A program made the position numbers and the translations under genes. A stretch of DNA of 38,358 nt from a virus. Position 1 is the first letter of the stretch; each line of letters starts with the position of its first letter. Below are positions 5,048-35,053 of this stretch, in pieces. The stretch is taken from positions 1 to 38,358 of IMG/VR virus record IMGVR_UViG_3300036945_000296; one strand, 5' to 3'. Under the pieces are notes generated by a model. The model had not been told where the DNA came from, did not search any database, and saw only the letters and a program-made list of their open reading frames with translations.

Positions 5048-5053
5048 GTGACT

Positions 5054-5611
5054 ATGACAACTATCGCAGCCATTCAAGGTATTGATTACGCAGTGCTAGT
5101 TGCTGACTCACAGATCACTGAGGATAACCTGGTGACTCTTGCAACCAGCACACCCAAGATCGTAGAGGTGGGTAAGTTCCTCGTCGGTATCTCAGGTGAC
5201 ACCAGACCAGGTGACATCCTTTCGTACAACTGGAAACCACCCATCTATCGTGGTGAAGATCCCGTCCAGTTTATGGGAAAGAAAGTTATACCAAGTCTCA
5301 ACCAAACATTTATGGATAACAACTACGACTACAACAAGGTGGACAAAGATGGCGGTTTTGATTATCTCGTGGCTTTTAACGGCAATGTCTTTAGGATTGC
5401 TTGTGATCTCTCTTTTTTCCAAAGTAATGTCGGAGCGTACGCTATTGGTAGTGGTGGGCAGTTTGCTCTTGGTTATTTGTATTCAAGCTGTAAGCCTGAT
5501 ATGGAGTTAGCCTACGCAAAGAGACACGCCCGTAAAGCCGTTGACATTGCTTCAATCCTTGACGCCAATACTGGCAAGCCTTTACAGTTGGTTGTACAAG
5601 AACGGTTCTAG
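5054..5611 (+). CDS. Proteasome/HslV-like Ntn-hydrolase
   Basis: A 185-residue protein starting MTTIAAIQG. After removal of Met the N-terminal Thr is exposed, as in HslV and proteasome beta subunits. Counting from that Thr, Asp falls at 17 (VLVADSQIT), exactly as in HslV, and a Lys at 34 (TPKI), one residue from the usual Lys33; the glycine motif VGISGD follows. Length fits a beta subunit without propeptide. Later features include GGFDYLVAFNG and YAIGSGGQFALGYL, the latter resembling the conserved beta-subunit region before the last helices. Known relatives form rings that degrade unfolded proteins. Here it is the first early gene; possible roles are takeover of host protein turnover or trimming a phage protein. 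No partner ATPase is seen. Start 5054 rather than the GTG at 5048 is supported by the exposed Thr. Confidence 0.8.
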   Translation: MTTIAAIQGIDYAVLVADSQITEDNLVTLATSTPKIVEVGKFLVGISGDTRPGDILSYNWKPPIYRGEDPVQFMGKKVIPSLNQTFMDNNYDYNKVDKDGGFDYLVAFNGNVFRIACDLSFFQSNVGAYAIGSGGQFALGYLYSSCKPDMELAYAKRHARKAVDIASILDANTGKPLQLVVQERF

Positions 5612-30000: not shown

Positions 30001-30930
30001 ATGGCAATTCCAGCAGGTAATTTAACTGGTACCTCCGATATCAGCGCACTCGTAAAGACAGCATACGATCAATACGTTCGTATGGCTCTTCGTAGCATTC
30101 CTGTTATGCGTGCTATCGCTGATGTCAAGCCAGTACAGCAGGCTATGCCTGGTTCATCAGTTGTGTTCTCTATCTACTCAGATCTAGCTCAGGCTACATC
30201 TACATTGACAGAAACATCAGATGTATCAAGCATTGCTCTAGGTAACCCAAATCAGGTTACAGTAACTCTGAACGAATACGGTTCAGCAGTAACAACAACA
30301 AAGAAGTTAAACCTAACTTCATTCAACGATGTAGATTCAGCACTTGCTGACATCATCGCTTACAACTCAGCAGACTCTATTGATGCTGTAGTTGCGTCAG
30401 TTCTAACAGGTGGCTCAAACGTCATCTACGCAGGAACTGCAACAACAACAAACACAATCACATCATCTATGACAATGGCTGTTGCTGATATCCGTGAGGC
30501 TGTAACACAGCTTCGCACAAACAAGGCTGTGCCACGTATCAATGATTTGTACGCAGCATACCTACACCCACGTCAGGCAGCAGACCTACGTGCAGAGTCA
30601 GGTACTGGTGGATTCCAGGCATTGACACAGTACGTAGATCGCACACCATTCGTCGCTGGCGCAGTAGGCGTCATCGAAGGTGCATTCGTAGTAGAGACAC
30701 CTCGTGTGCCTTTCGCTGCGAACTCAGGATCAGTTAACGTCTACAAGGCTGTTATCGCTGGTCGTGAAGCACTTGCAGAAGCACAAGGACAGGACATCTC
30801 AACCGTTATCGGTCCAGAGATTGATGCTCTCCGTCGCTTCCGCACAATCGGTTGGTACTATATGGGCGGCTTTGCTCGCCTACGTGAAGCAGCTCTATAT
30901 CGCATTGAGTCAGCTTCATCTATTAACTAA
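30001..30930 (+). CDS. Major capsid protein
   Basis: A 309-residue protein with the look of the N4-gp56-type HK97-fold capsid family: VKTAYDQYVRMALRSIP near the N-terminus, KPVQQAMPGSSVVFSIYSD, LNEYGSAVTTTKKLNLTSF and a C-terminal FRTIGWYYMGGFARL. It follows the scaffold gene, is preceded by AAAGG, and has a terminator-like hairpin after it, suggesting high expression. No obvious decoration gene precedes it. Confidence 0.9.
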   Translation: MAIPAGNLTGTSDISALVKTAYDQYVRMALRSIPVMRAIADVKPVQQAMPGSSVVFSIYSDLAQATSTLTETSDVSSIALGNPNQVTVTLNEYGSAVTTTKKLNLTSFNDVDSALADIIAYNSADSIDAVVASVLTGGSNVIYAGTATTTNTITSSMTMAVADIREAVTQLRTNKAVPRINDLYAAYLHPRQAADLRAESGTGGFQALTQYVDRTPFVAGAVGVIEGAFVVETPRVPFAANSGSVNVYKAVIAGREALAEAQGQDISTVIGPEIDALRRFRTIGWYYMGGFARLREAALYRIESASSIN

Positions 30931-30999: not shown

Positions 31000-31323
31000 A
31001 TGCCATACGAACTAAGAACACCCTGGCAAAATGAAACCTGGTGTGACAGTACATACTTCAATATGTATGCACGTCTTGCTGGGCGCCCACTTGCAGGTGG
31101 CTCCTACACAGGTGCTACTCCGTCATATATGACAGATGTTGCACGTGGAGTTACATTGCTAGTTAATGGAACTGTTGTTACTGAAAGCAGAACTCCATAC
31201 CAAGATGACTTGGCAAATGCCACTACCTACTATCTAGGTGGACACGCTTACACGCTAACAGATGAGGAAGCACAAGTGCTTATCAATGCTGGCTATAGCG
31301 AATACCTCACACCGGTGGTCTAA
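31000..31323 (+). CDS. Small virion protein (107 aa)
   Basis: A 107-residue protein, MPYELRTPWQNETWCDST and a beta-rich body with an Ala/Gly loop, ending YTLTDEEAQVLINAGYSEYL. ATG 31000 has AAGGAGAG upstream. Its place directly behind the capsid gene suggests a head-decoration or completion protein, unproven. Confidence 0.7.
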   Translation: MPYELRTPWQNETWCDSTYFNMYARLAGRPLAGGSYTGATPSYMTDVARGVTLLVNGTVVTESRTPYQDDLANATTYYLGGHAYTLTDEEAQVLINAGYSEYLTPVV

Positions 31324-31592
31324 TGGGAAAACATAGACAAGATCACCCAGTGGATGTAGAGGGTTGCTTCGGATGCAAAGTGCTCGGTTTAACAATGAGT
31401 ACAGGAGCAGCACGTAGTGATGGTGTACCTACTGCCAAAGCTCACGATAAAGAACTAGAGTCTTACTACGGCGCAATACGTCAGGGAATCGAACCACGTT
31501 CAACCAGACAACCTGATATAGATGCTGCGGTAAGAATCAGTAATGAAGCAGGCAAAGCATTTGACGGAACAAGTTTAACCCTAAAACCTTAA
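31323..31592 (+). CDS. Small CxxC protein (89 aa)
   Basis: An 89-residue protein with one CFGCKVLG knuckle near residue 15, then a polar helical stretch. Similar short proteins occur near head genes of actinophages. It overlaps the preceding stop by one base. Role unknown. Confidence 0.7.
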   Translation: MGKHRQDHPVDVEGCFGCKVLGLTMSTGAARSDGVPTAKAHDKELESYYGAIRQGIEPRSTRQPDIDAAVRISNEAGKAFDGTSLTLKP

Positions 31593-31602
31593 GGAGTAAA
31601 AA

Positions 31603-31764
31603 ATGAAAGATGAAGCATACGCTAAAGAAAACGGCAAAGAGTTTGAATATGTCAAGAGTGTTGATGAGGTAGATCCATACCCACTAGCAGACAAGCAGTT
31701 TGCATCTAACCGTAAGTATATGACTTACGAGTCAATCTCAACAGGTGTTGGCGGTAAGAAGTAA
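31603..31764 (+). CDS. Small polar protein (53 aa)
   Basis: A 53-residue, charged protein (EAYAKENGKEFEYVKSVD). AAGGAGT precedes the ATG. The stop shares bases with the next start (TAATG). No family recognised. Confidence 0.7.
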   Translation: MKDEAYAKENGKEFEYVKSVDEVDPYPLADKQFASNRKYMTYESISTGVGGKK

Positions 31765-31829
31765 TGGCCGTGCGTAAGCCTGGCAAGTGCCGCAAGTGCG
31801 GTAAGTCAGACAAGATGTGTAAGTGCTAA
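31764..31829 (+). CDS. Cys-rich miniprotein A (21 aa)
   Basis: A 21-residue peptide with Cys at 9, 12, 19 and 21 (CRKCG and CKC), the four-cysteine pattern of a tiny zinc knuckle, and many Lys residues. Coupled to the gene before it by TAATG. Very short; supported by the neighbouring Cys-rich gene. Confidence 0.55.
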   Translation: MAVRKPGKCRKCGKSDKMCKC

Positions 31830-31832
31830 ATA

Positions 31833-31928
31833 ATGTGCGCTAAATGTGGATGCAAGTGTAAGGCAGGCAAGCCTCAAAAGGGTTGCAAGTGCAACTGCGC
31901 TACCTGTAAGAATGCACGAAAGAAGTAA
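31833..31928 (+). CDS. Cys-rich miniprotein B, metallothionein-like (31 aa)
   Basis: A 31-residue peptide with eight cysteines (residues 2, 5, 7, 9, 18, 20, 22, 25) as CxxCxCxC and CxCxCxxC, separated by AGKPQKG. Lys-rich and lacking aromatic residues, it looks like a miniature metallothionein. It starts four bases after miniprotein A stops; no good Shine-Dalgarno is seen, so translation is probably coupled. Confidence 0.6.
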   Translation: MCAKCGCKCKAGKPQKGCKCNCATCKNARKK

Positions 31929-31930
31929 CG

Positions 31931-32197
31931 ATGCCAGCTAAGAAAGATCCTCGCCTAGAGCGAGCAGGTGTAGAAGGTTTTAACAAGCCTAAGAAGACAC
32001 CGTCACACCCAACCAAGTCACACGTTGTAGTTGCTAAAGAAGGCGATCAGGTCAAGACCATTCGCTTTGGACAGCAAGGTGTAACTGGAGATAAGAAGCC
32101 AACTGCACGACAGGCTTCCTTCAAAGCACGTCACGCTAAGAACATTGCCAAGGGCAAGATGTCTGCAGCGTACTGGGCAAATAAGGAGAAATGGTGA
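31931..32197 (+). CDS. Conserved-looking basic protein (88 aa)
   Basis: An 88-residue, very basic protein. The C-terminal half has the pattern KTIRFGQQGVTGDKKPTARQ followed by FKARHAKNIAKGKMSAAYW, which matches short DNA-associated proteins found in many phages. It probably binds DNA or the head interior. The stop overlaps the next start. Confidence 0.75.
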   Translation: MPAKKDPRLERAGVEGFNKPKKTPSHPTKSHVVVAKEGDQVKTIRFGQQGVTGDKKPTARQASFKARHAKNIAKGKMSAAYWANKEKW

Positions 32198-32667: not shown

Positions 32668-33982
<1,315 letters not shown>

Positions 33983-33991
33983 ACTAGAGCA

Positions 33992-35053
33992 ATGAAAATT
34001 GCTATCTATACCATTAGTAAGAATGAGGCTAAACACGTTGAGCGTTGGTACAACTCCACCAAGGAAGCTGATTACCACATCATCGCAGACACAGGATCAA
34101 CAGACGATACCGTTGAGATTGCTAGAGATCTTGGTATTACGGTTGTGCCGATCTATGTCAATCCCTTTAGGTTTGATGACGCGAGAAACGCATCGCTTGC
34201 GGTAGTTCCAGCAGATGCTGATTACTGCATAGCACTTGATATGGATGAGGTGCTTACACCTGGTTGGCGTGAGCACTTAGAAGCAGCCTTTGCTAGAGGA
34301 CTTGATAGACCTACATACAGACGCATTGAAGCATTCAATGATGATGGATCTGTAGCATCAGAGTTCAACGGATTCAAGGTACACAGGCGAGAAGGTATAC
34401 GCTGGCACTATCCGATTCACGAAGTACCGCAGTGGTACCACGAGCGAGAAGAAGTCAAAGACTTCATTACTGGCTTTGAGACTCACCACCTGCAGGATAG
34501 AACAAAGTCTCGTGGACAGTACCTGCCAATGCTTGAGATGGCAGTACGTGAGAATCCAGATTCGAGAAACCTTTACTATCTAGGTAGAGAACAGTCTTAC
34601 CACAATCAGTTGGATAAGGCAGCAGAGACTTTGAAAAAGTACTTAGAGATAAGTATCTTCCCAGAAGAGCGTTCTGCAGCTTGTCGCATCTTATCTAAGT
34701 GCGAACCAGAAAATGCTGAAGAATGGTTTATGAAAGGCACAGAAGAGTTTGCTAGCAGAGAGTCAATTCTTGGTTTAGCAAATTATTACTACACGCAAGC
34801 TATGTGGGATGAATGTTTGTTGGTATCAGAAAGGGCTTTGACCTTTACTGAAAAGCCAACACAGTTCCTAGCAGAGTCTTGGGCGTGGGGACATATGGCC
34901 TATGACCTAGCAGCGATTAGTTGCTGGCAACTAGGTAAGTGGAAGATGGCATACAAGTACGGTAAAGAAGCAGTAAAGATAAGTCCAAATGATGAGCGAC
35001 TGGTAAAGAACCTTGCGTTCTATAAGGAGAAAATGAATGGCAACACTAAATGA
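33992..35053 (+). CDS. GT2-family glycosyltransferase with C-terminal TPR-like helices
   Basis: A 353-residue protein. The N-terminal 230 residues have the GT2 fold: IYTISKNEAKHVERW, then Asp33 in ADTGSTDDT, and Asp83-x-Asp85 (ALDMDEVL), the metal and donor-sugar site, plus the HEVPQW loop. The C-terminal 120 residues are paired helices of TPR type. It is embedded among virion genes just after the collagen-like fibre, unlike most surface-modifying enzymes, so modification of the fibre is the leading idea. Start ATG 33992 has only AGAG upstream. Confidence 0.85.
   Translation: MKIAIYTISKNEAKHVERWYNSTKEADYHIIADTGSTDDTVEIARDLGITVVPIYVNPFRFDDARNASLAVVPADADYCIALDMDEVLTPGWREHLEAAFARGLDRPTYRRIEAFNDDGSVASEFNGFKVHRREGIRWHYPIHEVPQWYHEREEVKDFITGFETHHLQDRTKSRGQYLPMLEMAVRENPDSRNLYYLGREQSYHNQLDKAAETLKKYLEISIFPEERSAACRILSKCEPENAEEWFMKGTEEFASRESILGLANYYYTQAMWDECLLVSERALTFTEKPTQFLAESWAWGHMAYDLAAISCWQLGKWKMAYKYGKEAVKISPNDERLVKNLAFYKEKMNGNTK

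Follow-up and report, generated by a model that had tools for sequence, protein, structure and literature searches.

The window analysed here, the whole of an IMG/VR virus record of 38,358 bases, encodes a terminase (phrog_38, E=1.7e-64, profile match) and a WhiB protein (PF02467, E=2.3e-14). Its major capsid protein shares 42-45% identity with the capsid proteins of Streptomyces phages, Dennebes (subfamily Beephvirinae) among them, which makes an actinobacterial host likely. A chain of small genes leads from the capsid gene to a gene for a collagen-like fibre, and within it lie two adjacent open reading frames (ORFs), of 21 residues with four cysteines and of 31 residues with eight, placed as the original prediction had them between head and fibre genes (Table 1). 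Homologues of the 21-residue peptide were found in other contigs (MAVKKPGKCRKCGKSDKMCKC, MKKKPMAGMCKKCGKSKKMCKCK and MATASKCKKCGKSKKMCKC). Several neighbours merit mention in their own right. The 89-residue protein upstream has a CxxC of its own, a further possible metal site in the same block, and the 88-residue basic protein downstream has relatives, annotated as hypothetical proteins, in Roseobacter, Celeribacter, Lentibacter and Synechococcus phages (about 58-92% identity, best matches); as it is conserved in phages of these four host genera, this part of the array spans host phyla. The glycosyltransferase gene adjoining the fibre gene suggests that the fibre is glycosylated, while the 187-residue protein encoded far upstream is possibly a phage-encoded proteasome-like Ntn hydrolase.

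Table 1. Features of the window referred to in the text
Feature	Position	Strand	Remarks
187-aa protein	5048..5611	+	Proteasome-subunit match PF00227 (E=9.7e-13); HslV and archaeal beta-subunit matches weak
Major capsid protein (Phage_capsid_3), anchor of head block	30001..30930	+	PF13252 (E=1.5e-20); phrog_1357 major head protein (E=1.2e-75)
89-aa protein	31323..31592	+	EGCFGCK; phrog_24600/phrog_10483, unknown-function families
53-aa gene, head of coupled run	31603..31764	+	Product ..NRKYMTYESISTGVGGKK; Shine-Dalgarno-like AAGGAG upstream; kept 5' of the slot in relatives
21-aa basic miniprotein	31764..31829	+	MAVRKPGKCRKCGKSDKMCKC; four Cys (C-x2-C-G-x5-C-x-C); ATG overlaps stop of 53-aa gene
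31-aa basic miniprotein	31833..31928	+	MCAKCGCKCKAGKPQKGCKCNCATCKNARKK; eight Cys (C-x2-C-x-C-x-C-x8-C-x-C-x-C-x2-C); N-terminal MCxxCGC tag and second half CxCxCxxC
MCAKCGC tag of 31-aa protein	31833..31853	+	Cys2/Cys5/Cys7, register as in E. coli HypB high-affinity Ni(II) site
88-aa basic protein	31931..32197	+	Same gene run, 3' of 31-aa gene; phrog_7595
Collagen-like fibre protein	33002..33982	+	GPT/GAT repeats
Family 2 glycosyltransferase	33992..35053	+	TPR-like repeats; directly 3' of fibre gene

Both ORFs are genuine genes. Across the 10 distinct DNA sequences recovered at the equivalent slot of capsid-related contigs, the 31-residue gene has a pN of 0.014 and a pS of 0.625 (pN/pS 0.023), while the two shifted frames of the same sequences, used as a control, gave pN/pS values of 31 and 1.3, and its cysteine codons vary between TGT and TGC only. 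The corresponding pN/pS of the 21-residue gene, 0.057 from 7 sequences, is biased low because the retrieval pattern mostly fixed part of the peptide. ORFs of at most 40 residues with at least eight cysteines number two in the window, the 31-residue ORF and one antisense inside a gene, versus a mean of 0.01 in Markov sequences of equal length and dinucleotide content. The two frames are very short and of low complexity, and a clear AAGGAG precedes only the 53-residue gene, as might be expected of spurious frames within a Lys-rich coding region; however, the low pN/pS at high pS, the frame-shift control and the recurrence of the eight-Cys gene in three unrelated phage types leave that reading virtually no chance, and together with the Markov controls they rule out ORFs arisen by chance. 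As the 21-residue ATG shares its bases with the preceding stop (TAATG), the starts after it lie 2-3 bases past the preceding stop and neither ORF has a clear ribosome-binding site of its own, the two are likely translated by coupling to the 53-residue gene.

The eight-Cys peptide belongs to a widespread family. A DNA pattern that fixed only M-C-x-x-C-G-C-K-C returned 61 viral stretches, and although only the first four cysteines were forced, the second half KGCKC-x-C-x-x-C followed at equal spacing in 59 of these, the two exceptions having another tail (L178) or a frameshift (L214). A wider eight-Cys pattern gave at least 120 matches in viral contigs, and the 146 matches listed for both patterns pooled represent at least 84 distinct 27-residue blocks. 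Among the matches listed, all eight cysteines, partly fixed by the pattern, and G17, which was free, are present in 84/84 distinct blocks, C2, C5 and C7 likewise in 84/84, and G6 in 76/84, so that the cysteine positions, on whose conservation in relatives the original prediction had been made to depend, are indeed conserved. The 71 distinct standalone peptides among these matches have exactly eight cysteines, no His or aromatic residue (F/W/Y) and a net charge of +8 to +11. When one genome from each of 84,980 prokaryotic species was searched with the wide pattern, 16 matches were obtained, and none of the 12 that were translated had the family consensus; apart from L359, a different Cys-rich protein, these were low-complexity frames such as runs of Cys, and a cellular origin was rejected. 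The family is apparently phage-only within the collections searched. In a collection of cultured phages no match was found with queries of 31-34 residues, which the low-complexity filter may have masked, nor with a 203-residue fused protein.

Metallothioneins are small proteins of high metal content, bound in metal-thiolate clusters; about 20-30% of their residues are Cys in CxC/CxxC groups, while aromatic residues and His are rare or absent. The metallothionein-like composition ascribed to the 31-residue peptide in the original prediction is borne out, as it is tiny, 26% Cys in such groups and free of aromatic residues and His; a fixed N-terminal position and modular fusions, described below, set the family apart from metallothioneins. 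Homology searches for metallothioneins gave, at E<=1, nothing in Pfam or NCBIfam, and no convincing PDB match, and by this measure the family is no described metallothionein family. More generally, no family match to the peptide was found in Pfam, PHROG, NCBIfam or the PDB, consistent with the suspicion that such miniproteins had been overlooked. A literature search on phage metallothioneins and on the motif in phages, beyond whose reach most subscription papers lie, yielded nothing relevant. CCHC and CCCH zinc knuckles have a His ligand, whereas neither phage peptide contains His. An AlphaFold2 model of the 31-residue peptide, which is metal-free, is compact (mean pLDDT 88) with a helix at residues 23-29. 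Sequence and fold searches of the PDB gave nothing convincing, and the sole structural match was A0A6J5RC25 (BFVD), an uncharacterized 61-residue protein of an uncultured Caudovirales phage with 67% identity over 30 columns and a TM-score of 0.80 to the model; it is longer than the peptide and has no assigned function. A family of 61 residues and unknown function, phrog_28167, weakly matches residues 2-42 of a fused protein (L236, E=0.015), and no match to it was found with 61 standalone members or the 31-residue peptide.

The original prediction missed three features of the family: its strict N-terminal placement, its HypB-like register and its fusions to larger proteins. Among the matches listed, the eight-Cys block opens nine distinct proteins of 151-352 residues, which adjoin head genes where the context was read. 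Some of these have glycine-rich stretches, one (L252) with a Gly-zipper match just below the cut-off (PF13441, E=1.8e-6), and the AlphaFold2 model of another (L250, pLDDT 49) is too poor for interpretation. Other proteins bearing the block, of 69-96 residues, have a K/D-rich tail. A scan for blocks without a preceding ATG, which covered preceding codons that begin with C, G or T, returned 42 stretches; 41 are of low complexity, and internal copies were discounted on this ground. As the one real copy among them starts with GTG, the block is, in the sequences compared, tied to the N-terminus even in fusions. About 200 further distinct tiny ORFs, a sample partly fetched by the tag itself, start with an MCxxC-x-C tag followed by unrelated tails, some of them acidic or with a loop resembling an EF-hand (EF-hand_1 E=0.009, Dockerin_1 E=0.003; both short of the cut-offs). 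One such protein (L179:7268-7429, reverse-complement coordinates), like those at many other loci, joins the MCxxCGC tag to an EF-hand/dockerin-like DVDKDGKLEGSDF loop and a Lys-rich tail, and proteins of this type would have two candidate metal sites within about 53 residues. The four-Cys motif of the 21-residue peptide similarly opens proteins of 172-217 residues (GGDHYQxEYQHWDW..; L316, L328 and L336), which we take to resemble DUF3310.

E. coli HypB binds Ni(II) via Cys2, Cys5, Cys7 and the N-terminal amine (PMC7055735), and sub-picomolar Ni(II) binding through this set of ligands was taken as the criterion for a HypB site. The phage family shares with this CXXCGC site (NF053667/NF053668, HypB_prefix) both the Cys2/Cys5/Gly6/Cys7 register and the strict placement at the N-terminus. 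The NCBIfam profile HypB_prefix_1 weakly matches two tag-bearing three-Cys relatives from residue 1 onward (E=4e-4 and 7e-4; 20.9-21.5 bits against a cut-off of 30). HypB, however, has a G3E GTPase domain, whereas the phage gene, without one, ends after 31 residues, packs eight cysteines into them and lies within a structural-gene block; with no GTPase and profile scores below cut-off, the eight-Cys family is not HypB. The exact register and the relatives' profile matches could still reflect a nickel-specific site with which the tag captures Ni(II) and withholds it from, or delivers it to, a host enzyme. We consider this quite improbable, as no nickel-enzyme gene was noticed nearby, a HypB-type site would not need Cys9 and the four other cysteines that the eight-Cys members have in addition, and the 31-residue peptide itself has no HypB_prefix match.

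The genomic context ties the family to virion genes. Among the matches listed, 111 of the 118 copies in distinct contexts have, no more than 5 kb away and always on the same strand, a gene for a head, neck or tail protein or another gene of the structural block seen in the window. At least three unrelated kinds of virion are represented among these neighbours, namely the capsid type of the window, that of contractile-tail phages (tail sheath phrog_23, tail tube phrog_4542) and that of phages whose major head protein is phrog_1005. In the 62 capsid relatives whose slot could be read, with capsid proteins 84-100% identical to that of the window, the slot holds an eight-Cys peptide in 11, a four-Cys peptide in 7, a three-Cys MCxxCxC peptide in 11 and none of these in 33, some loci being near-duplicates. 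Looked for at the same place in related phages, as had been suggested, short frames thus recur there, but over half of these relatives have nothing of the kind. The description of the two peptides as a tandem is correct for the window, where they are adjacent, but does not extend to a fixed pair: most relatives carry one peptide or neither, none of the 62 carries both, and outside the window both occur at two loci only (L213 and L281), about 470-540 bp apart. Since most close relatives lack the eight-Cys gene and a frameshift disrupts one copy (L097/L214), the gene is, judging by this distribution, accessory and dispensable.

Such a distribution is what a stress or cargo gene would show, and, along with 26% Cys in CxC/CxxC groups and the lack of His and aromatic residues, it would fit a metallothionein-like buffer, free in the infected cell, that takes up or supplies Zn, Cu or Cd late in infection without a role in the virion. 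A buffer of this kind, however, needs neither N-terminal placement nor linkage to head and tail genes, yet both hold, and the fusions to large head-region proteins better suit a module; we therefore hold it to be unlikely. Tiny ORFs rich in Lys, among them those for DUF6321 and DUF6496 proteins, form arrays around the standalone copies; the DUF6321 and DUF6496 proteins differ in sequence and lack the Cys cluster. By eye, HNH-endonuclease-like genes were also seen among the tiny basic ORFs 3' of the capsid gene in some relatives (L150, L157 and L095). These Lys-rich surroundings, the net charge of +8 to +11 and the Lys/Arg tail raise the alternative of a small, basic, zinc-knuckle-like nucleic-acid binder that is packaged or acts with DNA and whose metal is structural only. 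As the basic character is weaker in the fused versions and the tails of some three-Cys relatives are acidic, we give this explanation, too, a low probability.

On balance, we favour the view that the 31-residue protein is a phage-specific metal-thiolate mini-domain whose N-terminus must be free, an accessory factor made with the virion proteins. From the invariance of the cysteines, the composition, the N-terminal register and the predicted compactness we infer that the peptide binds metal, while its position and its fusions point to a part in the virion or its assembly. The peptide would be translated late, coupled with virion genes, and would fold round one or two thiophilic metal ions, held through Cys2/5/7/9 and Cys18/20/22/25; the N-terminal amine might add a ligand, as it does in the nickel site of HypB. 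The Lys/Arg-rich tail would stay available for binding to nucleic acid or to a protein of the virion, and the 21-residue ORF would encode a similar but smaller knuckle with four Cys. As the module appears to occur by itself, to carry basic tails in other cases and to open larger proteins of the head region in yet others, its likely role would be that of an accessory, metal-held module in head or head-tail assembly. That it brings zinc into the head, as was originally proposed along with chelation for a neighbouring protein, is possible.

A broader reading, which we advance tentatively and consider more doubtful, is that the MCxxCGC motif, here extended to eight cysteines, is a portable N-terminal metal clip that needs a free N-terminus and is carried by many unrelated small virion-operon proteins in phages of aquatic bacteria. 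It might then serve as a viral form of metal tagging, for instance in loading heads with metal or in locking proteins of the head-tail junction. Should the clip indeed bind metal, phage miniproteins of a kind that is common but has been overlooked would acquire a chemistry open to test, and MCxxCGC at residue 1 would offer a simple rule for finding its members below the usual gene-calling length. Metal handling would then be written into the virion gene blocks of unrelated types of tailed phage.
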